From Lepidurus packardi (lineage: Eukaryota; Arthropoda; Branchiopoda; Notostraca; Triopsidae), in the NCBI GenBank assembly GCA_023053545.1, contig JAKZAN010000001.1, positions 7,150,565 through 7,214,564 on the forward strand: a stretch of 64,000 nt of DNA. Reading direction: 5' to 3'. The translations under genes were made by a program, and so were the position numbers. The notes beneath the pieces were generated by a model. The model was given only the letters and a program-made list of their open reading frames with translations, was not told the origin of the DNA and did no database searches. Position 1 is the stretch's first letter. Every line of letters starts with the position of its first letter. Shown here piece by piece: positions 14,615-58,507 of the stretch.

Positions 14615-16642
<2,028 letters not shown>

Positions 16643-22159: not shown

Positions 22160-22259
22160 NNNNNNNNNNNNNNNNNNNNNNNNNNNNNNNNNNNNNNNNN
22201 NNNNNNNNNNNNNNNNNNNNNNNNNNNNNNNNNNNNNNNNNNNNNNNNNNNNNNNNNNN
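22160..22259. other. Assembly gap (100 N)
   Basis: Exactly 100 N, a conventional placeholder for unknown length. The left side ends inside a ligase exon; the right side starts 25 bp before a Helentron 5' end. Confidence 0.99.
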
Positions 22260-23584
22260 ACTCCTCAGTTTGTATGTATCATTATTTTTAGCTGTGACAA
22301 CAGCTTAATATATCGTCCAGACTTTAGCCTTGCCAGTGGGAGGGTGGGTTGCTGAGCTTGGCTCGGGTTTTTCCCATAAGGGCTGTGTTATTTTGGGGTG
22401 GGTTTGGTGGGTGGGAGATAAGGACATATTGCCATCGGCCAGGTCGTTCGTGCTCCTTTCATGAGATTCTCAGAAGTGGGCAAATTGGATCACAAAACGG
22501 GTTAGAACGTACCAGCACGTGATAGTTTTTGGGCTTGTGACGTCACGTCTGTAGGATCAATAGGACAGGGTAGCAGATCAACGTTGGTAAACGTTTGTTA
22601 TTAGCTGTGACAAAAGCTTACTATATCGTGCAGAGTTTGAATTTTGAGGACTCATAGGTAAAAATAAGATCAATTGCTAAAATTGTATTCTGTTTTTATT
22701 GGTAGCTTTCTATGCTGATATTTCTTATGTCAGCACTTACGTTAGTTTTGTGAACTGATTTCTTCTTATGTCAGCACTTACGTTAGTTTTGTGGACTGAT
22801 TTCTTCTTATCTTATATCTAACGGGTAGACATTTTTCCTGTTTGGACGATTGATTTCTTGCTTGGATATTTGGAAAAATTCTTGTTTTTTGTTTTCTCCG
22901 ATCCGGCAGTCACCTGCTCTAATTTTTGTGACTGCAATGTTAATTAGACTTGTTTCTTGTTTTGTACTGTTTGCAGTACTGAACTGAACGAACTGAACTC
23001 ATTGTTTGCATTGTCATTAGACGATTCTTTCCCGTATGATAAGTGGATAATTTCTGAATAATTATTCCGGCTGGTTATCTTTTGGAATTTTTAGGAGTAT
23101 CAGGTAATGTTCAATGAATAACAGTTTCATATGTTTCAGCACTTCCTGTTACCTTCGTGAGCTGATTACTTCTATTTTATGTACTAGAAGTTTTGGAATT
23201 CGGACGATTTATTTGTTGGAGATTTGGATAATTGCTGGATTCCGTTGTTTATTGAGATTGTTGGATTTTTCACGATTGATAGGTAATTCGTGGTTGAAAA
23301 TATTTATTTACATTTCACTATACGGTTGCTTTCTTTTACACAGTTAATTCATAATACATCTGCTCGTTTTTTCTGGTATTAAAGCATGAGGTTGATCTGT
23401 AGAGCGCCGTATTCGCAATTTGCGCATGTTTTTTCTGCTTCTAGTCGTGGTGCTCAGTGCACACCGATGGCTTTTGTATCTATTGCATGGAGTTATTTTC
23501 ATTAACAAAGCGAGGAAAATGACTTGACTAATGACTTAAACCTTTCTCCTAATGATTCAACTTTGACCGAACTTGACTTTACGA

Positions 23585-23640
23585 AGAATCTACTCTTCCA
23601 CACGTCAACTCTACGATAGAACCCGACTATAAAAGACCTC
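23585..23640 (+). promoter_or_regulatory. Helentron promoter module P1, copy 1
   Basis: A TATAAAAG box at 23628-23635 in the context CCGACTATAAAAGACC, preceded by the conserved ACTCTTCC, CGTCAACTC and TACGATAG blocks. About 60 nt downstream is a splice donor (ACTTTCG then GTAAGC, about 23695) leading into the small exon-like units. The same module recurs at P2. Confidence 0.6.
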
Positions 23641-23659
23641 ACACGGAATGACAGAAAAC

Positions 23660-24135
23660 AGTTGGACCGATACATATGGATTTGTTCAACTTTCGGTAAG
23701 CGTTTTTATTGACCTTAACCACGTTACTCTTTCACTTATAACGTCATGAATATAATTTTTGTTTCTTACAGTCCACATAAACTATGGCGAAATTCCCTGT
23801 CGTATCAAGACATCGAGTAGCTTCAGCCCTGATGAGTACAAACGTAAACATACGACATAAAGAAAAAAGTCCCCTACACCCTTTTTGAACTGAAACGTAA
23901 GAATTTTGCAACTTTCGGTACGTTAACAAAATAAATGCTTTAACAACAAAATTCACTACTTTCAGTAATCCCTCGATCGACAGCACTTTCAAATACGTAC
24001 CTTGTCTTATTACTGCAGGCTACACGGAATACGCCACTTACACACAATACAAATAAAAAAAGGAAAACTCCCAACCACACCAATTTATACATGCTGTGCC
24101 GAAGCCCAAAAATTTGTTCAACTCCCGGTATATTC
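23660..24135 (+). ncRNA. Splice-bounded mini-exon units downstream of P1 (putative spliced noncoding leader)
   Basis: After P1 the sequence alternates consensus donors and acceptors: donor at about 23696 (CAACTTTCG, GTAAGC), acceptor at about 23771 (TTCTTACAG), donor at about 23921 (CAACTTTCG, GTACGT), acceptor at about 23965 (CTACTTTCAG), donor-like site at about 24128 (CAACTCCCG, GTATAT). The intervening 'exons' of about 150-165 nt have stops in all frames. The same units recur in copy 2. The noncoding interpretation is an inference; no transcript is known. Confidence 0.4.
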
Positions 24136-25199
24136 AGATCATAAAGTTGTTTACATTCAAATGTCAGACTTGTAAATACGAAGCTACAAAACATGCCATA
24201 ATCACATCATATAGCTAAGCAGTACAAAATTCCGCATCGCAAAAAGACAGACACAATAATATACTCCGCAAACACCCAGTGACAGTAAAATGTACATTCA
24301 GATCACACATTTTAAATACATTTTTCTGCTATTAATCATAAATAACAAATCGAATATTCCACGTTCTTAACACGGACAGTTACGCAGCTCAGCAATAATC
24401 AGGTGAAACTATAATGTTGTTCTATAAGTATTTCCTTATAGTAGGTATGGAATAGGACAACATTTCCCATGAGCACCAATACCGGCATAGATACCACCGA
24501 TTCTATTTCGTTTGTAAAAATAACAATCCAAAAAATTTCCAACCATTCTAAAATCATCAAGTCGTAAAACGAATTGCCCTACGAATAAATGGCTTCGATC
24601 ATTATCGAAAGCTATTTTAAGGAAAAGCATTCCCTATTAATAAGGGAACGTCCATAAATGCGGCGTCATACAAATTTCACGACGTTTGGACCCTCCCACC
24701 CAATTAAACGGTCAACACTTTTTTTACCAATTTTAGTACATTTCAAAATATTGGTATGTTTTAAAACAAATATGATGTTTTCATTTTCAAAGATTTACCT
24801 CAGGTACATAATATATATTTCTTGCATTTTAGATAAATAGTTTGGGATTTCCGTATAATACAAAACCATCATGTATTTTTCTCTATTTTAACTCGATATA
24901 CGCATAACCCAACTGCAATTTAACTGCCTTCCACAACGTGACACCTTTTAAAAACACACCAAAAGCGGCAAACAATAAGACAACTGCATCCAGCTACTAA
25001 GCAAGAAAACTTCAAAATGTGCTTTGACACTCGAACTAAGGATACAAATTTCAATTGACCATCCCTAACTGCTGGTACACCTTTGAAATTTTTTCTTTCT
25101 AAATTGTACCCTTTTCATTAACAAAAGGAAGAAAATGACCTGACTAATTGACTTGAACCTTTGCCTCCATGATTGGACTTTGACCGAACTTGACTTTAC

Positions 25200-25260
25200 G
25201 AAGAACCTACTCTTCCAGGCATCAACTCTACGATAGAACCCGACTATAAAAGACCTCACA
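25200..25260 (+). promoter_or_regulatory. Helentron promoter module P2, copy 1 (upstream of the RPA-like gene)
   Basis: TATAAAAG at 25245-25252 with the same upstream blocks as P1. It is followed by a leader exon, a donor at 25389 and an acceptor ending at 25476 (88-nt intron in the 5' UTR), just 11 nt before the ATG of the RPA-like gene. This arrangement makes P2 the likely promoter of that gene. Confidence 0.65.
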
Positions 25261-25487
25261 CGGAATGACAGAAAACAGTCCACTCACAGCTCCCAAACAC
25301 TAAGTGCAAATCAATATTCATCATACAGTTCCAAAAAAGAAATTGAAAGCAATTTCACCTCACCATTCCGAAACACCCTATTGCAAAAGTAAGTAAATAG
25401 TTTCATTTCACAACTTTTTAATCCAATAGTTCTTCACTGCAACTCTTCTCATCATGTCTTATTCTCTTTCCACCAGAAACGGCAACC

Positions 25488-26543
25488 ATGGGAGCAGACG
25501 CTTACACCGGGTACGTCCATGACATAACCCCTTTGCGCCAAAACCAGAGTCCATCGAAGTACACCAAAATTCCAGGCCAAAATTTTCGCTTTTTTCTGCA
25601 GACGTCGGACAATACATACGAAGAATGTTTGTCGTTTATTGCTGGCTCCTATAGCAGAATTAAACGTTATTCGACCGCCAAGATACCCATCACCATCCAA
25701 ATCCTACCGAATAGCTCACCTTCAGGTCAGACTCCACAAAAAAGAACTAAATACGATCTTATTAAGATTACCCAATCTTCGCAAATCAGCGAGACAAATC
25801 AAACGCTCAAATTTAATTATTCGCCAAGAAAACAGCAACAAGCCACACTTCAAACTTGTATAGAGTTTCCCGACACCCGTTACAAAATCATCGTTCAAAT
25901 CCAAAACATTAGCGAAGAGAAGACAACGAACAAAGGGCAAACGTTCCGCGAAATAACAATTGGAGACGATACCTGTACTTCCACACTAATTACCTGGAAA
26001 AACCAAACAGTTACTATCGAAAAAAACAAAGTTTACGAAATTACCGATGTCATCTATAATCAAGATTATCAAAACTTCGCCTTGACGCAGCAATCGTTCT
26101 TTACAAGAACAGAAGCCCAACTGGACATCCAGCAACCCATTTTAGACGACACAACGGAGCCCATCATACTGGAAGCCATAGCCCACTGCAACATTGGTAT
26201 TTTCCAAACCTGCCTAGCCTGCAAAAAAAAAACAGAACGACAACCGACCATTCCAGATAACGATGACCCTACCATTACGTGCACAAACTGCAAAAAAATT
26301 CAACTTAGACAAACGACTCCACTAACTTTCCAAGGCACAGTCGGTTTCTTCAACGATAATAACATTATCGAAGCATCGATGACAGAAACCATACTAAAAG
26401 ACTTCTGCAAACAAGAAGAAACTCTACAACTGACTCCAGACACTGCGAATGCTGTCATCGTGAAATTACTAACGACAAAAGACTTCGACTTCACGGTAGA
26501 CCTAGAAAAAAAAGAAATCGTCAACGTCACCAAGAAAAAATAA
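25488..26543 (+). CDS. RPA-like OB-fold protein of the Helentron, copy 1
   Basis: 351 aa, single coding exon after a spliced leader. The pattern is that of the RPA70-related single-strand-binding proteins carried by many Helitrons/Helentrons. There is an N-terminal region with an OB-like beta pattern, then a second OB region around residues 125-215 (YKIIVQIQNISEEK, GQTFREITIGDD, STLITWKNQT, YEITDVIYNQ, FALTQQSFF). A four-cysteine zinc site follows (CLACKKK and CTNCKKI, about residues 240-270), as in RPA DBD-C, and then a C-terminal OB half. The reading frame is intact and the predicted protein is identical to that of copy 2 at 37732-38787. It would bind ssDNA during rolling-circle transposition; that role is inferred from the family. 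Confidence 0.82.
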   Translation: MGADAYTGYVHDITPLRQNQSPSKYTKIPGQNFRFFLQTSDNTYEECLSFIAGSYSRIKRYSTAKIPITIQILPNSSPSGQTPQKRTKYDLIKITQSSQISETNQTLKFNYSPRKQQQATLQTCIEFPDTRYKIIVQIQNISEEKTTNKGQTFREITIGDDTCTSTLITWKNQTVTIEKNKVYEITDVIYNQDYQNFALTQQSFFTRTEAQLDIQQPILDDTTEPIILEAIAHCNIGIFQTCLACKKKTERQPTIPDNDDPTITCTNCKKIQLRQTTPLTFQGTVGFFNDNNIIEASMTETILKDFCKQEETLQLTPDTANAVIVKLLTTKDFDFTVDLEKKEIVNVTKKK

Positions 26544-27191
26544 TATTGTTTTGTCAACATTTTTATTCTAAATAACCTAGATTTGTATTTGCATTGCATG
26601 TAATAGTGAATTCACTGTATTAGCGAAAAACTTACAAAATATATATCTACCAATAACGCAAATGTCTTCTGATATTATAATCACAGCTAATAACATTAAT
26701 AAAAATCACAGCTAAAAAGCAAACCATTAAAACATGCCAATAAAAAAAAAAAAAAAAACATGCAATTTCAGTTCGTTATCGTTTCGCATTTGGTTCGCAT
26801 TTTAATTCGCATTTCTGATAAATTTTGATACAACTTAATATCTATTGATAAATGCTTTGATACATATAACTTGATAACATTTCATATTTTTACTGACCAT
26901 CTTTTCTCCTATCAGTCAAGTCCGTTTTCTGCTCTATATCAAATAGTTTTAGGACTTACAGAATACCATAATTAATGCCATAATAATGACATGACATCAA
27001 ACAAAGCCGTTTCTTTAAAAATCAACAGTAAATAAAAATCATAGACTGGCACAGCTAAAAACCTCTACACATTTCAAAATCGACCACAACAGACCACCAA
27101 CAGACGAACCCAGAACAGCCACCTACCCACGTTCACCACTACTAACATTCCGTTGTCACAGCTTATTCGGCAGTCCAACCTGTCGTCTTGT

Positions 27192-27220
27192 TATTATTAC
27201 AATTAATTGAGAAAGTAAAG
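27192..27220. other. 29-bp leader between Helentron 3' end and the next start codon
   Basis: Only 29 bp of non-element sequence separate the Helentron 3' end from the ATG at 27221, so any core promoter of that gene must lie within the element or inside the gene. Confidence 0.6.
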
Positions 27221-28773
27221 ATGACTTCCCCGTGTTCCTCAACTGCACTAGCAGCCAAGGCATTAAAACTAGAAACGCTGCTAATAGAAGCAATTGAATT
27301 CCACAAGGTATGTGTTTTGTCTATGTTCAGTTCCTCAGTGAAGAAAGCAATCGAAATGATATTCTACGGGTAGATTTTTAGACTTAACATAATAACAGAT
27401 ACTCTTTATTCTTTCGCATGTTGTCGGTACAGATTTCCTGGGAAAGGATGGCTTCATGTCCGCAAGTATGGATGCATTTTTTGTATGGAATTCGTTAAAA
27501 ATGTAGACTTTTTTCTCTTATTAACTTATGCAAGCAATTAACTTAAGTTAATTGCTTGCATAAGTTAATACGAAAAATCCTAATAAGAGTCATCCTAATT
27601 AGGATGACCTCAAATGGCAAGAAAATTTGCAAGACTTGGAAGCCCGGATCTATCTTTACGACAAGCAGTTAAAATCAGCGCTACAGATGATTCAAAATAA
27701 CGCGACTCAAGGATTTGGATCTTGGGACGGTAAGTTTCATGTTAATTAAAAAAATGTCATTTAAAAATCAATTGTGTCTTTGCAGTACCATCGGATGTTT
27801 CCAAAAGTTCAAAATCAAAATGCCGAGCCGATTCAGCCAAGCCTCCTTTTTTAAGGAGGGAAGGATGCCAAGAATCACCTAAACTTTACCAACGGCCAGC
27901 AGGGTAAGGTCAACTAATAACGAATGGTAGCAGTACTTCACCGGAATGTTCACTAAAGTATTTACACTCTACACTAGAAGCCAGTCGACGGAACCAAGGC
28001 CCTGCGTCAAAAGCTCTAGATTAGGTTTGGAAGACACCGAGCAAGTTACATGCCGTGATGTATTTATGACAGCGTTAGGTAATCATACTATAATATGTCT
28101 GAATTTTAGTGAAAGATTTCGTTTTTCTAGCACTAGTAAGCGTCGAGGAAACCAAAGACGCGAGCGAACCTGTGGAGGATTCAAATTCCAGTTCAGATTG
28201 TAGTAGGAAAGAGGTTACGCGTCCGTTTGATACGCCGCCTTTGATTGAGCCGTCAATTACTTTCTCTCTCAGCGCACCAAAAGACATCGCAACAAGATAC
28301 CTAGGTGAGTGGCAGTTCCAAGTACAAGTGTTTTCTTTTCATTTTCTACTTTACGACATGAACAGGTGAATAGTGTTAACAGAAGGTTCCAATTTGGTTT
28401 GATAGAAAGCGACTTGATGTACCCGACCGTGGACCGAAATGTGAGAGTGACGCAGGAAACAAACTTGGAAAGCAGTACAGTACCTGTATCTTCATCTAAA
28501 GATCTTCTTAGTGAAAAAGTATATAGCCCAACATTGTCGAAAGTTAACCTTTTGAAACGTAGCAATCCAAGCAGCGTTTCTAAGAAAACCTTAACTTTGA
28601 GTTCCCCTTTTGTGCATATGGATGCAAGCGAAAACGTCAAAGCAGAAGGTTCACCGCAAGTTATACTGCCATCAAATATTTCAGAAATTCAATCTTCGGT
28701 GCACATTAAGCGGCTCGAAGAAAATAATGACATTATGTATGTCAATATAAAAGTGTCTTCCGATGTTGATTGA
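27221..28773 (+). CDS. Unrecognised multi-exon gene, Ser-rich C terminus
   Basis: I do not recognise the family. Exons supported by splice sites and phase: 27221-27307, 27433-27465, 27603-27729, 27786-27903 and a last exon 28406-28773. An exon about 28120-28304 joins in phase to the last one. Splicing between 27903 and 28120 is unresolved, because the obvious acceptors lead to a stop or a frame clash. That could be a misread exon or two genes. The N terminus is helical and charged (KALKLETLLIEAIEFHK, then DDLKWQENLQDLEARIYLY), suggesting a short coiled coil. The C-terminal half is low-complexity, rich in Ser, Val and Pro. The gene is immediately downstream of a Helentron 3' end and 290 bp from the USP gene. 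Confidence 0.55.
27520..27608. repeat. Two perfect palindromes (50 bp and 20 bp) at the end of an intron
   Basis: 27520-27569 is a perfect 50-bp palindrome centred on AACTTAAGTT. 27589-27608 is a perfect 20-bp palindrome, GTCATCCTAATTAGGATGAC, which contains the splice acceptor at 27601-27602. A short outer pair (CTCTTATTA with TAATAAGAG) encloses the first. Both would form strong hairpins in DNA or RNA. Confidence 0.85.
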
Positions 28774-29063
28774 TGTACTGTAATTACAGCTCTTTTTTGT
28801 ATGGACAATAAAAGAAGTTTATGCAAAGTTGTTATCCGCTCAATGCTAGGAGCCGCCACAGTAAGTCCGAAACGTGGCAAGTTGGTATTTACTTTTATCT
28901 CTCAGTATAGAACTTGTAAACATTTTCGGATTTTGTAAATTACGTTAGGAATTATAAATGTCAAATTCAAGTCAAGTTCGTGAATTAACACCTATGTGAT
29001 AATGCTGTCAATTCCTGTCACGTTTATAAGATTATTTTAAAATTATAACTCCATTATATAAAC

Positions 29064-30586
29064 ATGGTAAGCCATATTTATCGGTCTTGTTTTTCATTCA
29101 TTTATTTGTATAATGTAAATAATATAATATACTCTAAAACAAAATAGGGAACGAACGCCTCGCAGTTAGAACGGGATATAGGAAGTGAGCAGTTCCCTCC
29201 AAATGAGCATTATTTCGGGTTGATAAACGTAAGTCTTGTATATAAATTTTGACAAGAAGTTCTCTCTAATGCTTTTTTCTTACCCAAAGTTTGGAAATAC
29301 ATGCTATAGCAACTCTGTTCTTCAAGCACTTTACTTCTGCAAGCCTTTTCGAGAAAAGGTGCTGGAATACAAAGCAAAAAACAAAAGAACCAAAGAGACC
29401 CTTCTGACCTGCTTGGCAGATTTATTCTACAGTATTGCTACTCAGAAAAAGAAGGTTGGAACTATAGCCCCCAAGAAGTTTATAGCCAGGCTGCGAAAAG
29501 AGAAAGAGGAATTTGACAATTACATGCAACAAGATGCTCACGAGTTTCTCAACTTTCTTATCAACCACATAAACGAAATTATAATTGGCAAGTCAAAGGT
29601 AACATGATGACAATGCTTTAATTTTTTTTTTACCTATAGCTGAGCGGCAACAAGCATGCACCAAAAATAAGCCAGTAAATGGGAATAGTACTTTACCTCC
29701 CGAACCTGGAGGCGGTAATCACCCCACAGAGCCCACATGGATTAGAGAAATCTTCCAGGGAATTTTAACCAGCGAAACACGATGCCTCAACTGCGAAACA
29801 GTAATTCTATTAGTGTGATTTGATTTCTGTCTGAACCTCATATTAATTTTATTGTTAGGTCAATAGCAAAGATGAGGAGTTTTTCGACCTGCAGGTAGAT
29901 GTAGGGCAAAACACGAGCATTACACATTGCCTACGTTGTTTTAGTTCGACCGAGACACTTTGCTCGGAAAATAAGTTCAAGTGTGAGGTTTGTTGTAGCT
30001 ACCAAGAGGCCCAGGTATTGTTGAACACTTTAATGACTTCATTGTGAATAACATTTTGGGGATATTTTTTTTAGAAACGTATGCGGGTCAAAAAACTCCC
30101 CTTGATTCTGGCCCTACATTTGAAGCGGTTCAAGTACATGGAACAGTTCAACAGGCACGTCAAGGTATCTCACCGAGTTGTTTTCCCGTTGGAGCTTCGA
30201 TTATTTAACACAGTATGGACAGATAATCCCCTCCCAATGTTCTTCACGTGTTTTAATAAAAAAAATATGTTAGTCAGACGATGCGGTGAATCCTGACCGT
30301 CTTTATGACCTGGTCGCTGTTGTAGTACACTGCGGAAGTGGTCCTAATAGGGGCCATTACATTTCTATTGTGAAAAGCCACGATTTTTGGCTACTCTTTG
30401 ATGACGACATTGTTGATGTAAGTATTCGTAAATCATGCCGCCTGTTCTGCGATATGCTTAAACTCTTTCTCTTGATAGAAAATCGATGCGACGGCCATAG
30501 AGGATTTTTATGGGCTTACGTCGGATGTACAGAAAGCATCAGAAACAGGTTATATATTGTTCTATCAGTCTCGAGACGGTTGTTAA
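29064..30586 (+). CDS. USP46: Ubiquitin-specific protease USP12/USP46
   Basis: Deubiquitinase activated by WD-repeat partners (WDR48/UAF1 and WDR20 in animals). Eight exons: 29064-29066, 29148-29228, 29290-29587, 29640-29800, 29859-30014, 30075-30212, 30274-30417 and 30479-30586. All phases close to give 362 aa (human USP46 is 366). The first exon is only the ATG. Visible landmarks are the Cys box [28 protein letters not shown], the CLNCET and CEVCCS zinc-binding pairs, [13 protein letters not shown], and the His box [17 protein letters not shown] with FDDD. Exon 3 must end before GCAAGT: using the nearby GT (29599) puts a stop in exon 4, while the GC-AG intron gives a perfect phase. The product follows the family closely throughout. 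Confidence 0.95.
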
Positions 30587-31006
30587 CGTGAGGTCATATA
30601 TTAAATTATGCCTTTAAGTCCCAGGCAGCGTGCATGAATTGACATTTTTCCTGTGAAAAAAGATCACCTTACTACCAGTTTCTAGTAGTATTTTGAGCAG
30701 ATCATCGAACATTCACCTTTTTGTAGTGGGAAAGAATCCTGATGAAGCAGTTAATAATAAATACGCATTTCTTTAACCTATCTCGCTTTCCTATACAGAA
30801 TCTATCCTAATTCTAAATTCTGTTCCCAAAATTCTCTTAGCCTTATCACGCAAAACTATCCGGTTTCATGTAAACATTCGCCGTCGATTTGACGAAGATA
30901 TGATTACACCATCCAAGCTGCGCTGAGAACAAATACAACCATTCATTCGTTGAGTACCGTTGAGACTAGTTAGAAAAGGTATATGTGTTGTTTTTAGTGT
31001 CGAAAA
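30587..31006. other. Short intergenic region
   Basis: Contains the 3' end of the USP gene and the presumed promoter of the receptor gene. No further gene was seen. Confidence 0.5.
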
Positions 31007-32405
31007 ATGGAGAATGGATTGCTTCTCGTTAAAAACAACTGCACTAGCTCCGGGAAAAGTTATGAATTCAATGATGAAGTCAATTCGACGTGTTTGCGCC
31101 CCCCACCCGTGTTTGACCAGAACGCTTTGCTACGCACAATAATCCTAACACATATGGCCCTCTTCTCACTAATTGGTAACGTAATTACAGTGATAAGTAT
31201 CGTCCTCAAGTACCGGCGGAAAAATATTACCGGCAAACTGTATCGTCTTTTGCTCCAGTTGGCCATCGCTGATCTCCTCGTTACCGTCTGGTGTATTGTG
31301 GGAGAAGCTGCGTGGACTTTCACTGTGGCCTGGGTTGGCGGAAACTTTCTGTGTAAAATCATGAAATTTGCTCAAGTATGAGGAACCCATTCCTTTTTTG
31401 TTTGGCCCCATTAAAAACGACTTCTGACTTCTGGATTTCTAATGAACAGGTGTTCAGCCTCTACCTTTCAACTTTCATTCTGGTTCTGATTGGAGCAGAT
31501 CATTTGCAGGCGATACGAAATCCTATAGACAGAGCCATCAAAGTGCCTAGGTGGTGCGATACACCAATTGTTGTAATCTGGGCTTTGAGTGCTGTACTGG
31601 CAATTCCGCAAGTAACCCTTTCCAAGACTAAAAAAAATCTGGTTTACTAATAGCGCTACTATTTTGCCTTAGCTGGTTATTTTCAAGGTACAGCGTGGTC
31701 CTTTTAACGAGTACTTTGTGCAGTGCGTTACGTATGGATTTTACCATGCGAACTGGCAGGAGAAAGTTTACGCTTCGTTCAGCCTTCTGTCAATGTTTGT
31801 TTTCCCTTTGGTTGCCTTGGGTGCCATCTACTCGTGCATTTGCATTACTATTTCCGGTACGTACCGGCAGTGTTCCATGAGAACAATATCCTCTGGTAGC
31901 TCAATTAGTAGAGCGGTGGACTGTAGTCCATGAGAAAATTTTCTAGGTCTATTCTTGATTATTGATAGGACTGCATAACGTTTGTTTTGCTTTCGTTTTG
32001 TCTGTTTCTTGCAGAAAGACAGAGTGACCTTTTCTGCTCCAAGACCGCCAACAGGCCCCATTTCTGTGACCAACGAATAATACGTTTGCAGCGCGCCAAA
32101 GTCAAATCACTGCAGATGTCGCTTCTTATCGTAATGGCTTTTGTACTGTGCTGGACCCCGTACTACATCATGATGGCCCTCTTGGTTTTTTTCGATTTAC
32201 CTGAAGACGTAAGTTCTGGCGGAGTACTTTCCCAACACAATCGCTAAGTTTCCAAAAGACTTTTGGTTTAAGGACTGGCATATTTTTCTTTGGTATGTCC
32301 AACAGCGTCATAAATCCTTTAATTTACGGCGCTTTTCATTTGTGGTGGCCAAACAAAAAGGGCGTGGTAAACCGACCTGTGGACTTGCGCAGAAGCCGAC
32401 CTTAA
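31007..32405 (+). CDS. AKH/corazonin/GnRH-type neuropeptide receptor
   Basis: Class A GPCR, 351 aa from five exons: 31007-31375, 31450-31611, 31673-31856, 32015-32208 and 32259-32405. The last acceptor was chosen because it alone gives the NPLIYG motif in frame. Landmarks: N-glycosylation sites, GN in TM1, LLLQLAIADLLVTVW in TM2, WTFTVAWVGGNFLCKIMKF leading to TM3, FVQCVTYGFYHANWQEKVY in ECL2, LQRAKVKSLQMSLLI before TM6, LCWTPYY in TM6 and SNSVINPLIYG in TM7. This set matches insect AKH and corazonin receptors; which peptide it binds cannot be told from sequence. Oddity: the DRY motif at the end of TM3 reads ADHLQAI, so the near-invariant Arg is His. The C-terminal tail is short. Confidence 0.85.
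31889..31931 (+). ncRNA. tRNA-Tyr-like 5' half inside a receptor intron
   Basis: TCCTCTGGTAGCTCAATTAG followed by TAGAGCGGTGGACTGTAG resembles a tRNA-Tyr 5' half: acceptor strand, D-arm with A-box, and anticodon region with GTA at 31923-31925. No T-arm/B-box or 3' acceptor strand follows within range, so it is not a complete tRNA gene. It may be a tRNA relic or the head of a SINE. It lies in the intron 31857-32014. Confidence 0.45.
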
Positions 32406-32650
32406 AACTCGTAGATTCTGGAAAGCATATACATGACTGTAAGAGATTGGACACCAATTTTCTTTCTTTTTTACCGTTTTACATAATACACCTTTTCTAG
32501 CTGGTAGTGAGAAAGTATTCATAGAAAGAGTATCGTGCAGTTTTATTGAGTTGCCCATTTTATTGACCGCCTTTTCTCCACCAACACCCTAATTTAACCT
32601 TGCCATACTTAGAGAATTTTTAACTTTTTAAAGTGCAGCATAAATTAATT

Positions 32651-46799: not shown

Positions 46800-47060
46800 A
46801 AATAGCGAAAACTTACCGAAAGTAGTACGAATCCTTATGTTTTGGCTGACAAAGGGTGTTGGAAACTTTTTTTATATGTTTATATGTCCCGAGTCCATAA
46901 AGCCGGTAGTGTCAAAGGGTAGGTAATTGAATTCGTCTATTAGGAATCACTGAAAGTAGTAAAGTTGTTATTATCATATTGTAATGCGATTTGAATTATG
47001 AAAGTCAATAGGATAAGCTTACCGAAAGTTCAACAAGTTTTTAGGTTTCGGCTCGGATTT
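46800..47060 (-). repeat. Splice-bounded ~210-bp units, group 3 (copy 2)
   Basis: Two further units with donor-like sites at about 47021 and 46816, separated from group 2 by the inserted foldback element 46007-46746. The groups probably form one array of at least six units before that insertion. Confidence 0.5.
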
Positions 47061-47434
47061 TCGTTTACCAATACCAATATTAGTAAAAAGTGGTGAGTTA
47101 ACGGGTGGGTTGAACAGCAAACATCTGTTACTTAGGTTTGTGGGTGGTCCCGTAGAAGGGAACCAATCCGTGGTTTTTTCGTGTTAGTTTCATGCATGAT
47201 GGTTTCATGCGATCCTGCTAATTTCATTCAGTAAGTATAAGGACATATATACGTACGGAAGTTTCACGGCGCGTGGCTGAATTGTGAAATAGTGTTAATA
47301 GTAATCGGTGATAACTTGTAGTATATCCATATTGTTGAGTATCTTGTATTGTAATTGCTGACCATCTTGTCACTTTTAGTATACAGAATATTTAACTGCT
47401 TATCCGTAGGGTATAAGAATCGGAAATGTCGTGC

Positions 47435-48211
47435 TTATGACTTTGGGATTTCAATGTAAACAATTTTATGATCGGAGTAATATGTTTCGTATACGCCGGT
47501 TTTGGGTTGATTAAAACTGGTGTAAATATGATCTAGTGTTGACATATAGTCAGTGGTATAGGCGGTTATGTGTTGTTGAAGACGTAGGGGTTTAAGTATT
47601 TGTGTTACTTTCGATAAATCTGTTGCACGAGTGTGTATGTCTATATTGAAATCACCTATAATTACTATATTTTCATAAGATGTATCTATATCACTTATTA
47701 AATTGTGTAGCGCATCAAAGAAATTTTCGACGTTGAACCCGTGGTGTCTGTACAAAACGTAGATTGCAAGTGATAGTTGTGCAATATGTAAACTGCAAAG
47801 TTCGAGGTATTTGTTGGAACAACGTCTAGTGAACATTCCGTCGAGTTTTGAATACATAACCATTCCATAAGGTGAATTTCCTTTGTGATTTGTAGTGAAA
47901 TCCATACGGTGTAGATCAAAAGAATCTAGTTTATAATCAGCGTCGTAGTCTGCCGCGCATAAACGAGTCTCACATGCAGCAAATACAGTAGTTGCTTTGA
48001 TGAACGGATCATTTACAAGGTCAAGGAAATGTTTACGCAATGAGACTATATTTAAAAATGCAATCATTTTTGTTTTTGTATGAACAATAGATCTTGGATC
48101 TAATAACGTTAACTGTTGAGGTTTCGTTCGTAAACGATCCATTTCTTTTTTGGTGTCGGAGGAAATTTTAATACCAGGTTCATTGAGATCTTCTATAAAA
48201 AAGTCCCTCAA
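47435..48211 (-). CDS. Helentron endonuclease (EEP fold) domain
   Basis: Open region of 258 codons, the C-terminal part of the Rep-helicase protein. EEP (exonuclease-endonuclease-phosphatase) landmarks: IAFLNIVSLRKHF near the start (the N of the strand-1 metal site), FAACETRL (E motif), VIIGDFNIDIH (GDFN motif), STLDHIYTS (LDHIY) and YYSDHKIVYI (SDH). The order and spacing match the AP-endonuclease-like domains of Helentrons and LINEs. It directly follows helicase motifs, so this is the Helentron fusion rather than a LINE. There is no intact start; the first ATG is internal to the fused protein. Confidence 0.8.
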   Translation of the reverse strand: MRDFFIEDLNEPGIKISSDTKKEMDRLRTKPQQLTLLDPRSIVHTKTKMIAFLNIVSLRKHFLDLVNDPFIKATTVFAACETRLCAADYDADYKLDSFDLHRMDFTTNHKGNSPYGMVMYSKLDGMFTRRCSNKYLELCSLHIAQLSLAIYVLYRHHGFNVENFFDALHNLISDIDTSYENIVIIGDFNIDIHTRATDLSKVTQILKPLRLQQHITAYTTDYMSTLDHIYTSFNQPKTGVYETYYSDHKIVYIEIPKS

Positions 48212-48214
48212 GCC

Positions 48215-49613
48215 GTTTGGCCCCTACTGATAGCAACGTAATGCATGTTTGACGTAGCTCTTCCTAAATTGACAATTACCTGCTCCATTGTTTGTCCTTG
48301 TGCACGGTGAATTGTTTTCGAGCTGTTTGGCCGTAGTGGATACTGGAGTCCTTTCAAATTCAGCTCGGTTGTAGGTGTATCTACAAGTTATTGGAAATAT
48401 TGGCGTCCAGTTAGGGCTGAAGGGTACAATCTTGCTTGTAGAGATGAGAGTACTTTTGACGACACTGTTTTCCTATCGTCATTTCCTTGAACTCAACCCA
48501 AATAGGAGTATAAGCGGCTGACTGTAGAACTAAGCACTCGCAGACTGAGGAAGATTTCAATATTCCTTTGTCTGCAACTGGTAAGTGTAAAGGTAGTTTC
48601 TTATAATGCATTCTGACCCCATTAGCCAAGCCATCATTAACATCAGAGTTCATACTGTATTCGAAAGGCAAATTCTATTGCTATATGTAAATAACGAATG
48701 CAATTGGTATTAGTAATTTTATCCGGCAGTGTGTTTAAAAGACATTTTATATCAACGCCTTTACACCCTCTTACTGGAAGGTCGGTACTGATAATTATTG
48801 CTCTCTCTTGTTTTGCGTTTTCCCATTCCTTTTGGTTGTAGAAATCAATATCATTATTCCGGTAACTGATTCGTTGTACACCAATTGGGAGACGTTGAAG
48901 TGATTCGGCTACGTAGGATAGAAATATCTTCAGGAGTTTGCTTGCCTTCTCGTAACCTGTTTAGGAGTTCCGCGAAGAGAAGGTCGTCTTTTTGACGCAT
49001 GATCTGCTGTAGCTCAAACATTTTAAAGTTGTCTAAACCAAAGATGCTCAGATAAGCAGCGTGCTCCCGTATTCGAATATTTAAAAACAGGCTGAGCTTT
49101 CGTTGGTGGTAGTTGAAAGAGGTCTCCGACACAAACAATACTGATTTACCTCCAAATATCTGCGACGAGCCAAAAATTTCTTTTAAGCGAAAGTCAATGT
49201 AATAAAGCATATTTATTCCTACCATAGAAATTTCGTCTATTATGAAAAGTTCTACATCGCGGAACAGTAAATATAATTCCGAGCGCACTTGAGATTGCAA
49301 ACACAAAAAAAGTATTATTAGCGTCGAACATTCTTCCTATAGGAATATGAAATGTGCTGTGTATCGTTGATCCGCCTACATTAAAAGCGGCTTTGCCAGT
49401 GTAAGCTACAATAACCACTTTCTTTGTATCGGGATTTGAGTTCGGACCTTTGTTAAAATAACGGGTTACACATGCGTCAATCGCTCGAACAACTAAACTT
49501 TTGCCTGTTCCGGCTCCACCGCTAAGGAATCTACAATAATTGCCAGCTTTTGTTTTATGCATGTATAAACAGGATCTAAGACAAATAGTCGTTGTTCTAT
49601 ATTTAAACAACAC
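48215..49613 (-). pseudogene. Helentron PIF1-type helicase domain, frame-broken
   Basis: Walker A is LSGGAGTGKSLVVRAID (near 49530) and Walker B is LFIIDEISMVG (near 49235). VVIVAYTGKAAFNVGGSTIH is motif Ia. FELQQIMRQKDDLLFAELLNRLREG follows motif III; motif V is TIHRAQGQTMEQVIV (about 48300) and motif VI YVAISRG (about 48240). Together these are a complete set of SF1B/PIF1 motifs, but spread over several frames: the 49613-49194 and 49306-48854 frames overlap around the expected QLPP motif, and further shifts lie before motif V. The helicase is therefore not translatable as a single exon. Confidence 0.8.
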
Positions 49614-50583
49614 GCATCATAGAGAAATACTCCTCATCCTCGTATACCATACTTTTCGACTGACGAAGCTGTTTTACCTAAGCTCAGATCATTAGGGTGG
49701 GGGTATTTGGTAAATCTCTTCCTATGTCTGCTTCAGGCATGCAGTTGTACTCAGGGTCGAAAATTTGATTGGAATCAGTTTGCAATTCCTTCAGAGTTTC
49801 TTCGTCTTCCGATTCTGAACCGTTGAAAGTGTTATGATCCACTAACTCGTGTAAAGGTTTGCTCAGTATATCGTCTACCAGCATCACTGCTGGGTTCAAA
49901 AAATTGGCGTTCTTTTTGAATACGGTTGAAAACATCACGCTGGAAAAATGTAGTCTCGTAAGTTTCTTGAGTTTTAAGATCATTGTGATCCCTCCATGGC
50001 CAGTACAAACATGAGTTTACTATGGAAATATTTTTCAGGGTTTGTGTCACAGACGGTAGTTCATGAACCTTAAGATTCGATGTTTTGTTCGTACATTATA
50101 GGACCGAATGTTTCTTCTCTTTTTTGTCATTATCGAAAGACTCTTTATTGTCATCTTCAAGTTCTGATTCGCCAGAGTATTCGGTTTGTTCTATACAATA
50201 ACCATCGTCACCAACAATATTGGAATCATTGTTATGATATTTATTGCGTGTAGTTTGTGACATATTCTGCTAAGCTTGTGTTCTCTAGGTAGTTCGGTCT
50301 CTTCGAATATCTATCTAAAAAATTTTCAGATATAACCATTTTCGTTTTCATCGTCCATTTTCTTAATGACTGGCAAAAGGTTTCGAAAGAATTACTCTAT
50401 CCTCAGGTTGACATGTGGGAACGAACACAACAGCCCTGCTGAATTTTCTTAAAGGCAACCTGAAGAAGTAAAAAAACAGCTTCTTGCACACACACCTCTG
50501 TGGAATTTAAGAATTTGTTGCCCACCACTTCTAACTTTTCTCTAAGCGTAAAATTCTTCCATTCATGTACTTCTTTTACCACG

Positions 50584-51773
50584 TTACGAAGAGTTTCGCC
50601 TCATACCCTTTTGCGATTTGGTCATGTAACTTGCAATATATGAGGCAGCTGCGTAAGCATCAAATACATACTGAATGTCCATATTTGCGTCCCAGAATTC
50701 TAGGAGTAATGGATTAAAAGCATTTACCATACATTCGTTAGGCGCACGTTTCAAGAACAATGTTGTTTTGGTAATACGTGTTCGCAAAGCACCAATATAA
50801 GTTTCTAAATTAAATCCACACTCGCACAAAAAGGAGTCAAAGGTGGCAAATGTTTCACAAGAAAGGTTCATTAATTCCTTAATTTTTTTCCAAGCAAGAC
50901 TATATTTATTTATGTTGTCTTTTGGCTCGTTGGACTCGAAAGGTTTGAGCAACATTGTGTTCGGGACGGGAGGTTTCGGGAAAGCGAAGCGGCATTTCTT
51001 GTTTTTTTTCCCTTTTACTTTACAGGTAAATGTGTGTCTGTGTTTTTGTACTTCAATGGCCTTTTCTGTGTACGGACCAGATAATTGACAAGAAACGTAC
51101 TTGTCTACATACCGGATTAAGGCTTCGTCGAACGACTGTTCATCTTGAAAATCAGCCGCGTAAGGGGTTGGGTTATCACACCAAAACGAACAAATGAATA
51201 TGGGGGGAGCCACGTTGTTGAAATTCCACACGTATTGCATAATCTTTAACTTTGCCAAGTGGTTCGATTGGGTCTCTGAATAACTGTAGAAGTTTGTCCT
51301 ACGCGGTAATTAAAGTATCTTGCACAAGTGACGTTGTCTTTGAGTAAACGACATTTGTCTAACCATGCTAACGATTTAAGTTCAACATCCGTGTACAAGC
51401 GTTTATCAACCGTTTTTCCTAATATTCGCAGGAGGTCAAGCCATCTAGTTTCTGCTGCTGAAAAGCTTAAAAAAAATGCAGGGGGTCCCAGTTGACGAAT
51501 CATGGCAAATAAGTCATGGCATACGCGCTGGAAATAAGGAGGCGATCCACGTACAGATTTTAGGAAATTGAAACCTCCGTCAAACTGCAATGAACGTAAG
51601 ACTTCCGGGTTTTTCAGCATCCGTGCGTTAAAAGAAGTTCCTGGTCTTTTATCCTTAGCCTTTAAAATTCTCGTCCCGAAGCGCATAGTGTCAGCTATCT
51701 TCTTTATTTGTAGTTTCTTAACTTTGAAAAAATATGTTAATTTCCGTCTATTGAGCAACACGACGATCGACAT
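50584..51773 (-). pseudogene. Helentron N-terminal and Rep (HUH nuclease) region
   Basis: Two overlapping frames. 51773-51246 carries the Helitron-like N-terminal domain (GSPPYFQRVCHDLFAMIRQL, PPAFFLSFSAAETRWLDLL). 51258-50584 carries Rep features: QKHRHTFTCKVKGK as the two-histidine metal site, CRFAFPKPP, and near the end YIASYMTKSQKG, matching the two-tyrosine plus lysine catalytic helix of Helitron Rep. They appear to be one protein separated by a single shift near 51250. Rep nicks the donor strand and starts rolling-circle transposition. Confidence 0.78.
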
Positions 51774-51927
51774 GTTGTAACTCAGCTTTGGGCAAAGAGA
51801 ACTGTAAGAAACCGGTCGAGATCGAAAATGACCATTTGTATATTGATCGTTAGGATTGAGACAGTAAGCTGGTCTTGCAAAGCCACAAAAGATGTGAGGG
51901 AAGGCAAGTTCTTCGCAGTCCTTATCG

Positions 51928-52200
51928 CTAAGTTATACCCAATGGTCGCTTGTTTTCTCCAGGTGCTATAATATGAATAACGTCGTCACCTTCCCCATGT
52001 AAAAAATTTTCGTTCAATAATATAGTATCCATATTGACTCTAGCAATATCTTCAGAAATTTCTGTGTCACTACTATCACTGTGTGGCTTTGTTTTTGGAA
52101 ATATAATAGAGTCCATTGATTCTGGATCTGATGCACCATCAGTGATGACGCTTTCTTCAACACACACTTCCGGAACATCTTCCTCTGTACAAATTGCCAA
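51928..52200 (-). pseudogene. Helentron polyprotein linker segment
   Basis: Acidic stretch (EEDVPEVCVEESVITDG, SDTEISEDIARV) ending IIAPGENKRPLGIT. Past its stop the next frame reads DKDCEELAFPHIFCGFARP, the 'FP..F' block that precedes the Helitron N-terminal domain in related elements. It is unusual only for its acidity. Confidence 0.5.
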
Positions 52201-53663
52201 TTCTCTGCAAATGAGATATTATGTTCAATAAATAATGGGACGTGTGACTAGCAGTTTAGCTGCGTTACGCACCAAGTTAGGACGAAACAGTTTCTACAAA
52301 CTCTGGTCGAGTATAAGTTAACTTTCTTTTCAAGGCCACTTTTATTGTTTCAAAATCTCTAAATTTTCGCGGTTAATTCTGTAATGGTTTCATCAATATC
52401 ATGTGGAATATTTACGACATTTCCTTTCAATTTTGACTGACCTCCTTGTCGCTGTGGTTGTAATCTTAAGAACATGAGACGAGGGGATATCAATCTTCGT
52501 TCCATAGGGTTTAAAATCTTCAAGAACTTTAGGCAATTCTGGGGAAGCCAACTTTATTTAGTTTTGACATTGGAGGAATTTTACCCTTCTGCAGATATCT
52601 GAAACCCACGTTATGCACACGAATTCGGTGTGTATGGCTCGGAAAACACGAAACAAATAACTGGCTTGCGCAAGATATGTCATTATCGTTAAGTTCATCG
52701 ATGGCTGGTTTGCAGTTTTTTGGCAGGAAACAATGAACGCTTAAAAAAAAGTTGGGAACAACTTCCGCATATAAAATCTGGTCCTTGACTCAGTAAAGTT
52801 TTCTCTCTTTTCAAAGCTATATCAACACACGTATCTGAAGAATTTTCATTGCTCATAGAAAATTAAAGGCAGTGTACTCTGTGTTTATATCTATATTCAC
52901 TTGTTTTTTCTTCGTGACGGTTCCCAGCAGAAGCGTTAATACGCGTTGTCTTAATTTCCGTTTTCATACAAACCAATTCTGGATCTTCATTATGCATATA
53001 AGGACACATTACTATGCTGGATTTATGACTAATACATACGTTATTGAAGTCCATAATGCATTCGAAGACACCAAGAGGGCGTCATTGTCCTTTTAAGCAA
53101 CGTGTTGTTTCTAAGGTAAAGCAGTAAATACTGAAGTGATGTAAGTCATTCAACCCAATAAAACATTCTTTCAGTAACATTAGGCAGAGCAAAAGTAGTA
53201 ATATTTTTGATCTGTGCACAACGATCCCAATAACGCACAATGCACGCTACAGCTCCGTTTTTGCATTATTATGACTAGTGAAAAGGTTAATAGTGTCATT
53301 TTCTGTTTTAAAGATACCAATACAGTAATTTCTTGTATTCAACGACGAAGTAACTACCCTCTCGCGAAGGCTAAACTGAAGTACGTACTAAATTGTGAAG
53401 GTAAAACTTTTGTACACAAAATTCGTGAAAAACACGTGAACGAAAGTCCCATATCTGGGAAAGAAAACTTACTAGGTATCTTTGTAAGTGATATTTGAGA
53501 CTTGTAATCTGCGTACAAGTTATATAACGGTCATTCCAATTTTACGTATATGTCGAATCATCTCAAAGTTAGTATAGTCAATTTGAAGTAGCCCTCTAAA
53601 AAATAGCACAACGTAACGCCAAAAATACCAACAGTGAAAGCTACTGATTGACCACATTTGCGA

Positions 53664-54743
53664 TCAATGTAAAAGTTGTCTGCGATTTTCTATACCCTTA
53701 CATAAAACAGAATGCCGAACTAAATGGCTACGATTTGAAAGCTGTAAGCCACATTCAGGACATTCAAAACTCGTAATACTGGTGGATAATAAGTTTTGAC
53801 AACTAAGCTTGTGTTTATGAAGCAGGGCTCGATTAACGATAGATTCACCACAACCTAGGCATTGCACTTCCTGGCTATTAGACGAAGAGTTACTGGTTAT
53901 ATTAGTATGGTCCTTAAGTAATGTTACGACTTTCGGAGAATGAGGATTTCGGATATCGTTCTGTAAGTCAGCTACTTTTGTCCCTAACTTTTTGAATGAA
54001 GTTCTCCTTACTTAGAGTATCTGTTTGACAATGTTTCCCACTGTCATTTGCAGGTTTTAAGCATATATTCGTAGTCTGTTGAGAAAAAAGGGAGACATAT
54101 TTTGAAATGTCTTTGTAAATTCGAAGAACGAGTAAAAAATCCTATAGCAGTTCTCACATACAAATTCTTTTCGCTCCTGTTCACTAATTTCTAAAATGTT
54201 ACTCGGAAGATCATACACTAAAGTTGCAGTATTCCTTATTTCTTACATTAGCCGCATGGTGCTGTACTTTCCTTATCCACATGAACAACTCCGATTTGTC
54301 TGTCAAATCCTGACTTAGGCGAAAAATGTGTTAGTTGTGCAAAACGAGGAATGTCGATTTAATCCACGGCGCGTAGAAAATGTTCGCAGGCAATTCCCAC
54401 AAGTATTTTCATTCTTTTGTGACGTTTCACTGCCACTAAGTCTCTCCTCAATAGTCTTGGCCTTACTGATCTGTAAGTCTTCATTTCCTTCACACTTTAT
54501 ATTCTTAGGAGCGTGCTTACTGTAATAACTAAATGCTGAATCGTGAGTAGTTACCGTTGTCTTATTCTCTTTTGGCAAATCTGCATTCACTTTGTGGTAT
54601 GTCATCACATTTAACAGCAATGTAGGCTGACAGCTGTCATCTAGATGTTGTACCTTTTTATTGTTTAACGTTAATAATATCTTTCGGGAAGCAAGGTCAG
54701 CATTCCTTTTATAGGTTTCTTTGCTAGCATTTGAACCAGTCAA
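53664..54743 (-). pseudogene. Helentron C2H2 zinc-finger region
   Basis: Three finger-like motifs: CGNCLRTFSTRRGLNRHSSFC (near 54340, last ligand Cys), CLGCGESIVNRALLHKHKLSC and CPECGLQLSNRSHLVRHSVLC (53867-53680). They are the C2HC variant, commonly found between the N-terminal protease-like domain and Rep in large Helitron proteins, where DNA binding is presumed. The frames between them are not continuous. Confidence 0.6.
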
Positions 54744-55099
54744 ATCAATTTACTACTGGTACTTCGTTTCCATGTATAAGCGGAAAAGATTTCAACTTTT
54801 GCTTCATTTCAGTCGCGATGGTAAGGTCTTCTCCACAAAATGAATTTTGACAATCGTTCTTTTCTGATTTCAAATTTTTCGTATTATTCATTTTCGATTT
54901 TTTCGGTTTCTCTGATGTCTTTTTATCAACATCAGCAGGAAGGCACATATTAGTAGCATAGCTAGCAGTTATATTACCGATAGTTACAGCCCGTGTTAGC
55001 CTTTCATTGCATATACCACGACTACAGCCTACCTACAGTTTGTACAAGTGTATTCAGACGTGCATTTCCCTAATTCTTTGCAACAAACTGGCACAATGT

Positions 55100-55640
55100 C
55101 ATACTGCGGATTACCATGCGATAACACCGAACCAATACATGTTCCGTAGGTACCCAATTAATTCATGGAATTCTAGTTCTAGCAGGACAGCAGTACCCAT
55201 ACTATCAGGTTTACCAGAGGCATCTCGTGCATGCGAATCAAAAAGAAAGTATTTTCCATTGCGCTCCATAATGCTTGTACAATGTGAGCAACTAATAAAA
55301 AGCACACCAGCACAGCTATGTGCAGCTCTTACGGAATCTTCCAAAGTGGTAGCATATGGATGAGTTTCCCGTGGACATATAAAACCAAACGCATCTTGCC
55401 CATGCAGAACGTCTCTAATATACCAAATTCTTTAAAATCCAAGTATCCCGGTAGTTCGGCAGAAAAAAAATACCTCTCACGGGTGCTCGTAAGTTCGGTA
55501 TAATTTCATCTCCCATCGTCATTATATCACACATGTTTTTTTCAATCCACTCGTTAGGAGGAACCAAATAACTCCATGCAATAGATACAAAAGCCATCGG
55601 TGTGCACTGAGCACCACGACTAGAAGCAGAAAAAACATGC
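55100..55640 (-). pseudogene. Helentron cysteine-protease-like domain (OTU/C76-type fold)
   Basis: On the minus strand RGAQCTPMAFVSIAW (Cys near 55606), then WIEKNMCDIMTMGDEIIP, then HSCAGVLFISCSHCTSIMER, YFLFDSHARDASG (His and Asp context) and GTAVLLELEFHELIGYL. The GxQC start, the LFDSH block and the GTAVLL-F-YL tail match papain-fold proteases found in large transposons; the nearest named families are OTU and the C76 tegument-type group. The two halves are in different frames. Its role in Helentrons is unknown. Copy 1 keeps only the first ~20 codons before its deletion junction. Confidence 0.55.
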
Positions 55641-55879
55641 GCAAATTGCGAATACGGGCGCTCTTACAGATCAACCTCATGCTTTAATTACCAGAAAAAA
55701 CGAGCAGATGTATTATTAATTAACTGTGTAAAAGAAAGCAACCGTATAGTGAAATGTAAATAAATATTTTCAACCACGAATTACCTATCAATCGTGAAAA
55801 ATCCAACAATCTCAATAAACAACGGAATCCAGCAATTATCCAAATCTCCAACAAATAAATCGTCCGAATTCCAAAACTT

Positions 55880-56330
55880 CTAGTACATAAAATAGAAGTA
55901 ATCAGCTCACGAAGGTAACAGGAAGTGCTGAAACATATGAAACTGTTATTCATTGAACATTACCTGATACTCCTAAAAATTCCAAAAGATAACCAGCCGG
56001 AATAATTATTCAGAAATTATCCACTTATCATACGGAAAGAATCGGTCTAATGACAATGCAAACAATGAGTTCAGTTCGCAAAGGCACTGCAAACAGTACA
56101 GTACATAATATAAAAGTAATCAGCTCACGAACGGTAACAGGAAGTGCTGAAACATATAAAATTGTTATCATTGAATATTACCTGATACTCCAAAAAATTC
56201 AAGCCGGAATAATGATTCAGAAATTATCCAGTTACCATACGGGGAAGAATCGTCTAATGACAATGCAAACAATGAGTTCAGTTCGTTCAGTTCAGTACTG
56301 CAAACAGTACAAAACAAGAAACAAGTCTAA
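55880..56330. repeat. ~200-bp tandem duplication near the 5' end of Helentron copy 2
   Basis: Two direct, slightly diverged units (about 55890-56080 and about 56100-56290) share GAAACATAT, ATTACCTGATACTCC and TCTAATGACAATGCAAACAA blocks. Copy 1 has a single unit (about 22985-23190), so this is a copy-specific change. Confidence 0.6.
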
Positions 56331-57003
56331 TTAACATTGCAGTCACAAAAATTAGAGCAGGTGACTGCCGGATCGAGAGAAAACAAAAAACAAGAATTTT
56401 TCCAAATATCCAAGCAAGAAAATCAATCGTCCAAACAGGAAAAATGTCTACCCCGTTAGATATAAGATAAGAAGAAATCAGTCCACAAAACTAACGTAAG
56501 TGCTGACATAAGAAGAAATCAGTTCACAAAAACTAACGTAAGTGCTGACATAAGAAATATCAGCATAGAAAGCTACCAATAAAAACAGAATACAATTTTA
56601 GCAATTGATCTTATTTTTACCTATGAGTCCTCAAAATTCAAACTCTGCACGATATAGTAAGCTTTTGTCACAGCTAATAACAAACGTTTACCAACGTTGA
56701 TTCTGCTACCCTGTCCTATTGATCCTACAGACGTGACGTCACAAGCCCAAAAACTATCACGTGCTGGTACGTTCTAACCCGTTTTGTGATCCAATTTGCC
56801 CACTTCTGAGAATCTCATGAAAGGAGCACGAACGACCTGGCCGATGGCAAATATGTCCTTATCTCTCCACCCACCAAACCCACCCCAAAATAACACAGGG
56901 GTCAGCCCTTATCGGAAAAACCCGAGCCAAGCTCAGCAACCCACCCTCCCACTGGCAAGGCTAAAGTCTGGACGATATATTAAGCTGTTGTCACAGCTAA
57001 AAA

Positions 57004-58055
57004 CGCAAGTGAGCACATGCCATGTGATCCTAAGTACTGAAAACTGAAATGCAAACGATCATATGAATAAACCGCCAATGAGCATAACGGAATCATCGAA
57101 CGAAACTAGGGGGGTGAAAATTTTTTTTAATTTGTATTGTGAAATGTTATATATGTAATTTAAAAACCTTACACACAATAGATATCCAGGAGTCGAGCTT
57201 AAACAAGAGTGGGTTTTACACTTCTCTTCCATTATCTATCTTGTGTCGAAACCAAACCGAGTTTGCAAAAGGAGCAAATAGGTCATACAAAATTCAGAAT
57301 TTGAGGAGTGTATTTGCAAATTTCAAGGGGATAACAAAACTCGGGCGGTATACGGTATACTTTTTGAACACTATTACATTCGAGAAGTAAAATGGTTAAA
57401 ATGCTAAATTAGCTAATCTATGTTAAGTAATATAGAAATCATTTGAAAATCTTGTCTGAATTAAAGTTAAAACTAAGATTAATTAAATCTAAGATTAAAT
57501 CTGATTAAACTAAGATTATTTTTCGTAAGTTCGATTATTTAGATACTGGCATCGTTTATTTCTAATTTGATACACCCATCATTTCTCCTTTTCGTAATGA
57601 ATACTATTCGGCCATTGCACCGCTTTCGTGTACCGACAGTTTTACTCGAAGACAAGACAAGGTTAACAAAGGGAATTCCGATATTGACCATCCTATTCTT
57701 TTAGCCTATAGGCACATTTATTTTACTTCAATACAGTGTTACAAATCAAGCGTGTTGGGAAACACAGAGCACCTAGGATGATTTGAGCTTACTTCCGATT
57801 TACAACCCTGTCATTTCGAAACCCGGCAGGGTTTTATTTTTGGCTACTTCGTTTCGCAAATTCTAATTCGCGTTTTTACGCCTTTTGTTTAGCAAGCTGC
57901 CAGACTTTGCTTTTCGCGTGTCAATGTTTAAAATCGCGTCTTTCGACCAACCCGTGTGAATCTTGTCTTGAGCTGCATGCATACGATATAAACAATAACA
58001 AACAAAATTGAATAAATTCAGAAAAGGTAGAATAATCAAATCCGAAAGTGCCAGC
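57004..58055. other. Intergenic, nothing recognised
   Basis: AT-rich stretch between the Helentron 5' end and the RRP36-like gene, with a short ATTAAATCTAAG repeat near 57475-57515. No coding similarity was seen. Confidence 0.5.
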
Positions 58056-58407
58056 AATGGATGTAGATATTTCGGACTCAGAAGATTACGAGGAGGACCA
58101 AGATATTGGACAGGAGGAAGAGACAGGGTAGTGAAGATGATATTCCAGCCACCATGCCCATGCTGAAAGCGTTCGATGCGAAGTTCCAGCAGAAGCTAAA
58201 ATGCGACGACTGAGGCTTCAGAGTCACCCAGAGCCAACAGCGACGACGAAAGAGTTGAGCAAAATACTGCAGTATTTTGTCAGGGGCGTAACAACAATAT
58301 GTTTTCTCCCTCCGTTTGCAGACTGAAATCCGGAAAGAGCTTCTCAACTTTGTCCTTTGAAGAACTACAGAAAGTTAAACAGAGAATTGGCTGCAAGAAA
58401 TATCAGG
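58056..58407 (+). CDS. RRP36: RRP36-like rRNA-processing protein, 5' part (cut by gap)
   Basis: RRP36 is a nucleolar factor needed for early cleavages in 18S rRNA maturation. The exon 58322-58407 encodes KSGKSFSTLSFEELQKVKQR then IGCKKYQ, which matches the 'MSFEELLELQSQVGTKTYKQ' core of RRP36. Upstream, ATG at 58056 begins an acidic N terminus (MDVDISDSEDYEEDQDIGQE), also usual for the family. How the acidic segment joins exon 58322 is not settled: the frame hits a stop at about 58128 unless a splice or shift occurs. The rest of the gene is missing in the gap; the sequence after the gap belongs to something else. Confidence 0.6.
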
Positions 58408-58507
58408 NNNNNNNNNNNNNNNNNNNNNNNNNNNNNNNNNNNNNNNNNNNNNNNNNNNNNNNNNNNNNNNNNNNNNNNNNNNNNNNNNNNNNNNNNNNNN
58501 NNNNNNN
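58408..58507. other. Assembly gap (100 N)
   Basis: Exactly 100 N. It interrupts the RRP36-like gene on the left and opens in the middle of a ligase exon on the right. Confidence 0.99.

Follow-up and report, generated by a model that had tools for sequence, protein, structure and literature searches.

Ligase copy C and the piece within its exon 2

The window, by which we mean the whole stretch of 64,000 nucleotides analysed here, is C1:7150565-7214564 of the Lepidurus packardi assembly; this assembly (108.6 Mb, 344 contigs) was the one searched, and other places in it are cited in the same form. The features discussed are collected in Table 1. The name of ligase copy C is taken from the initial annotation. 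We take the ligase copies to be of the acyl-CoA ligase type; of three ligase exon pieces run against Pfam, none was given a family. In-frame stops are found within exons 2, 3 and 6 of copy C. Elsewhere in the window, 13516-19663 is marked by LTR-like direct repeats (266 bases, 99%), the frames within which are presumably reverse-transcriptase-like and gag-like, and a long AT microsatellite lies inside it at 16088-16321.

Table 1. Positions of the features in the window
Feature	Position	Strand	Basis or remark
Stretch resembling exon 1, upstream of ligase copy C	19753-19884	+	57% to paralogue exon 1
Exon 2 of ligase copy C, left part	22018-22159	+	cut by contig end at 22159
N gap, 100 long	22160-22259	.	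N-run count
Contig of 36,148 bases, almost certainly misplaced	22260-58407	.	N gaps, exon collinearity, C4 alignment, shared end
Short Helentron copy, internally deleted	22285-27198	+	inverted relative to the long copy
Stretch fully matching only itself in the assembly	27199-36949	.	dispersed ~180-bp repeat inside
Ubiquitin hydrolase	29233-30591		Pfam match
7TM receptor pieces	30998-31650		Pfam, one just below cut-off, one just above
UfSP2 N-terminal domain match	33563-34042	-	Pfam
Glycosyltransferase family 43	35481-36230	-	Pfam
Flank of the long Helentron, 127 bp	36950-37076	.	one other copy found, opening the C4 contig that starts at C4:5401399 (its first 127 bases)
Long Helentron, ~20 kb	37077-57003	-	
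Error-rich tail, 10.2 kb	48197-58407	.	comparison with C4; end shared with two other contig ends
RRP36 exon fragment	58320-58407	+	cut by gap; intact gene on C4
N gap, 100 long	58408-58507	.	N-run count
Right contig start, 17 bases	58508-58524	+	overlaps 22145-22159 with two extra Cs
Ligase copy C, exon 2 remainder and exons 3, 5, 6	58521-59476	+	

The window holds exactly two runs of N, each 100 long, and these bound a piece of 36 kb just as the initial annotation had described, including a start 25 bp ahead of a Helentron end. The same annotation had exon 2 of copy C broken off at 22159 and taken up again past the second gap, and comparison with the paralogue bears this out: of the paralogue's exon 2 (60907-61116), residues 1-47 are matched by 22018-22158 and residues 47-68 by 58521-58586, the latter with an E value of 0.02 when taken alone. 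Among 101 join offsets tested, the best is the one by which 17 bases of the right contig are dropped, with 34/60 identities just past the join against 24/60 for the second best, and this offset preserves the reading frame and leaves exon 2 gapless against the paralogue. Since a single offset is outstanding, the overlap of the contig ends is read as 15 bases on the left (ACGTCGAAGTCCCCT) against 17 on the right (ACCGTCGAAGTCCCCCT), the difference being two extra Cs; thus an overlap does exist as had been proposed, although not in the proposed form of about 13 bp with 4 against 5 C. It had also been said that the remaining exons follow in order, which holds for exon 3 (58627-58824), exon 5 (59105-59251) and exon 6 (59300-59476), and for pieces 4 and 7 of the paralogue, which are short exon pieces, no match in copy C was found at E<=1. 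A DNA search of the whole assembly with 22000-22159 gave, apart from itself, just the paralogue (73%), and one with 58508-59500 gave no match but itself.

How, then, did 36 kb come to lie within one exon? A real insertion into the ligase pseudogene would account for the 13 identical bases on either side as a target-site duplication, and CGTCGAAGTCCCC is found on the plus strand at 22146 and 58510 only, window-wide. Against this, both borders are N gaps, the repeat fits 15 versus 17 bases better, and the elements near both borders are Helentrons, which produce no target-site duplication according to the part of PMC4067079 on which we draw.

The inside of the piece, between the two Helentrons, is a stretch of 9.75 kb with several Pfam-recognisable genes. 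When this stretch was searched against the assembly (40 of 397 candidates scored, 50 matches listed), nearly all of the non-self matches listed fell on one dispersed repeat of ~180 bp. The 25 bases at the left end of the piece were considered as a possible tie to an adjacent contig and were rejected: they are part of a dispersed repeat, because there are 21 matches at no more than two mismatches (two exact, in the window and at C1:4402972, and 19 with two mismatches), and they give no placement. No Helentron end was seen in the 601 bases of C1:4402600-4403200.

The Helentron copies

The piece contains inverted arms, 23496-27198 and 37077-40779, each 3,703 bases long, 100% complementary and 9.9 kb apart. 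These arms are parts of two Helentron copies, one of which has a large internal deletion, with its junction near 23496-23498. This short copy has one tandem 207-base unit fewer than the copy on C4, and it retains a frame of 373 codons (25422-26543), which we take to be RPA-like and for which Pfam gave no family. Judged from its sequence, the element is a Helentron, having one frame with three domains in order together with subterminal inverted repeats. The frame is open over 2,722 codons on C4 and broken into pieces in the window copy; in the C4 frame (2704 aa), Pfam finds Helitron_like_N at 1341-1466, PIF1 at 1986-2206 and Exo_endo_phos at 2554-2694, the last with 25.8 bits against a cut-off of 24.5, and the OTU family is absent from the Pfam listing for this frame. 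The inverted repeats of 11 bases, GCTGTGACAAC and GTTGTCACAGC, were read by eye, without a chance estimate. In both copies the outer end begins TTTTTAG. The long copy also has two tandem 347-base units at 42300-42994, as does its counterpart on C4.

A single frame with Helitron_like_N, a PIF1 helicase and a C-terminal endonuclease, as well as subterminal inverted repeats, are shared with the Helentrons described in the part of PMC4067079 on which we draw. The repeats of mite Helentrons are given there as 12 to 15 bases, in contrast to 11 here, and the RPA and OTU parts are without a Pfam match here.

With a 3-kb probe, for which 40 out of 152 candidates received a score and all counts are thus lower bounds, at least 15 places matching the probe over its full length were found at a listed identity of 100%, the window copy included, in addition to at least three partial places at 99%; the same table has a related family at 71% in at least 12 places. 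Furthermore, C2:9190660-9191873 is 100% identical to the first 1,214 bases of the short copy (bases 26-1239 from the contig start), the missing 207-base unit included, and is probably a second copy of the deletion derivative, as far as the match goes. It is tempting to imagine a very young, perhaps active family of ~20 kb, with an open Rep/helicase/endonuclease frame of 2,722 codons, and a deletion derivative which has spread while keeping only the 373-codon single-strand-binding-like frame; we regard this as a tentative picture, for which the chances are somewhat short of even. The near-identity of the copies could be inflated by the assembler.

Comparison with C4 and the shared contig end

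When the window was compared by blastn with C4:5310001-5470000, 36950-58407 was found to be collinear with C4:5401399-5422752 over 21.5 kb at 99.4% identity, and C4:5401399 is the first base past a 100-N gap. The differences are far from even. From 36950 to 48196 there is one homopolymer indel over 11.2 kb, and from 48197 to 58407 there are 36 substitutions and 96 indels, about one indel per 106 bases, 89 of which are extra bases in the window. This texture, rich in insertions of one base, appears to be that of poorly corrected long-read sequence. Three Helentron ends were also compared with one another. Columns in which a single copy stands apart number 18 (inserted) and seven (substituted) for the right window copy and one for the C4 copy. 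For the left copy there are 201 deletion and 19 substitution columns of this sort, most of them due to the absence of one 207-base tandem unit and to flanking sequence that is unrelated; in five columns no two copies agree.

The last 1,398 bases of the piece (57010-58407) have copies of 100% identity in C3:5715616-5717013 and C1:6300158-6301555, and one of 99% on C4. The final 24 bases before the gap are found at four places, namely three contig ends and C4, and 100 Ns stand directly after the shared tail in the window, at C3:5717013 and at C1:6301555. On C4, the sequence continues past the equivalent of 58407 into a frame of 195 codons matching RRP36, so that the earlier statement that the piece ends inside an RRP36-like exon has been substantiated, with a fragment at the gap and an intact gene elsewhere. 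A search for the RRP36 family listed C4 alone, the short window fragment not being reported. Over its final 3,256 bases the tail at C1:6.30 Mb is identical to that of the window. The C3 tail sides with C4 against the window as far as about 56.0 kb; from there on it has the window's differences, and it also has a few private ones. The left flanks of the Helentrons at these three ends differ from one another, so that, given a single RRP36 locus, at most one of the tails truly adjoins RRP36. If RRP36 is indeed at a single locus, at least two of the three RRP36-tailed contig ends are wrong extensions.

As read from these comparisons, base 58407 is an artificial end, because the tail recurs at two other ends bounded by Ns and C4 reads on, and for this reason it is not an insertion boundary. 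An insertion would need a right border that two other contig ends happen to share to the base before their Ns, with the continuation of RRP36 intact on C4 only. We thus give a biological insertion, which the initial annotation had kept as possible, next to no chance and consider it effectively excluded. The piece is almost certainly a misplaced contig, as was proposed from the start, in view of its N-gap borders, the ligase exon running collinearly across it, its collinearity with C4 and the right end it has in common with two other contigs.

Origin of the piece

Where does the piece belong? C4 is the likeliest home because the unique left flank of the long Helentron is shared with it and RRP36 lies on the right: when 36780-37090 was searched for, it turned up at just two places, in the window and where the C4 contig begins. 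The piece would probably sit immediately upstream of C4:5401399, with an overlap of 21.4 kb. The left flank is the better pointer for this placement. The RRP36 tail was rejected as sole proof of an origin from C4, the identical tail being present on three contig ends. To the left of 36950, no second copy tying the sequence to C4 appeared in the search with 27199-36949 (40 of 397 candidates scored), and C4:5400001-5401298, the contig end left of the gap, matched only itself and gave no link. Left of the likely home contig there is a 44-kb contig between two 100-N gaps, C4:5357401-5401298.

It might be argued that the misplaced piece has its origin elsewhere than on C4, the RRP36 tail and the C4 start both being wrong extensions through the Helentron. 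The same tail is indeed found on the C3 and C1:6.30 Mb contigs behind other left flanks, and at least 15 near-identical Helentron copies are there to confuse the assembler; yet two reciprocal coincidences are needed, the right flank of C4 on the piece and the left flank of the piece on C4, and we consider such an origin unlikely. It is a variant of the explanation preferred here, and its odds overlap with those of the latter. The start of the C4 contig is possibly a wrong attachment, therefore the assignment to C4 is weaker than the exclusion of the piece from the ligase exon.

Another possibility is that the piece is a haplotig, i.e. an alternative haplotype of the C4 locus misplaced on C1. 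The 99.4% identity across 21.5 kb would suit such an origin, though Helentron sequence makes up nearly all of the clean 11.2 kb, whose identity alone is therefore not decisive. The differences are uneven, from one indel in the first 11.2 kb to about one per 106 bases, with 89 of 96 indels being extra bases, and those in the Helentron end are private to the window side and recur in other contig ends. The step from near identity to insertion-rich sequence sets this reading back, and we regard it as quite improbable, though less so than a real insertion.

Preferring a misplaced contig, we explain the window best by three assembly events. The assembly broke inside exon 2 of ligase copy C, leaving contig ends that still overlap, as is seen in the sequence. 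Elsewhere, a contig made of the short Helentron, the single-copy genes and the 20-kb Helentron met a repeat beyond read resolution, and its right end was filled with poorly corrected sequence; that this sequence is common to two other contig ends is seen, and the filler was probably a single long read or a single branch of the graph, a read being our inference. Finally, the scaffolder set the contig, small as it was, in the gap of the ligase copy on C1.

Taken at face value, the assembled window would show a large insertion with genes in a ligase pseudogene as well as a surplus RRP36 fragment, and both look false; the genes of 27199-36949 would map to C1, though they are probably on C4. That this contig end recurs on C3 and at C1:6.30 Mb makes gaps adjoining this Helentron family suspect assembly-wide. 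Biologically the case is ordinary, and its value is that of a warning for annotation.

Which kind of assembly error is this? The closest known kind is homotype false duplication at contig boundaries, combined with misplacement in scaffolding. For the latter, gene structure alone indicates that the contig ends on either side adjoin each other in the genome, and no paper turned up when the literature was searched for contigs misplaced during Hi-C scaffolding. Homotype false duplications are described, in the part of the VGP paper PMC8081667 on which we draw, as lying at contig boundaries, being about as long as a read, having unequal consensus quality and being followed by a gap; they are ascribed to graph branches sharing a small overlap, often of the length of a corrected read, or to sequencing errors. 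Here, too, the duplicate is at a contig boundary, all three tails standing directly before 100 Ns, and, as judged from the assembly alone, consensus quality is unequal between the copies; the error-rich part is 10.2 kb long. Unlike in that part of the source, the duplicate here ends three distant contigs beside copies of a 20-kb dispersed repeat, where a figure legend of PMC8081667 has tandem duplicates with a gap between them, and the contig here has also been set inside another gene.
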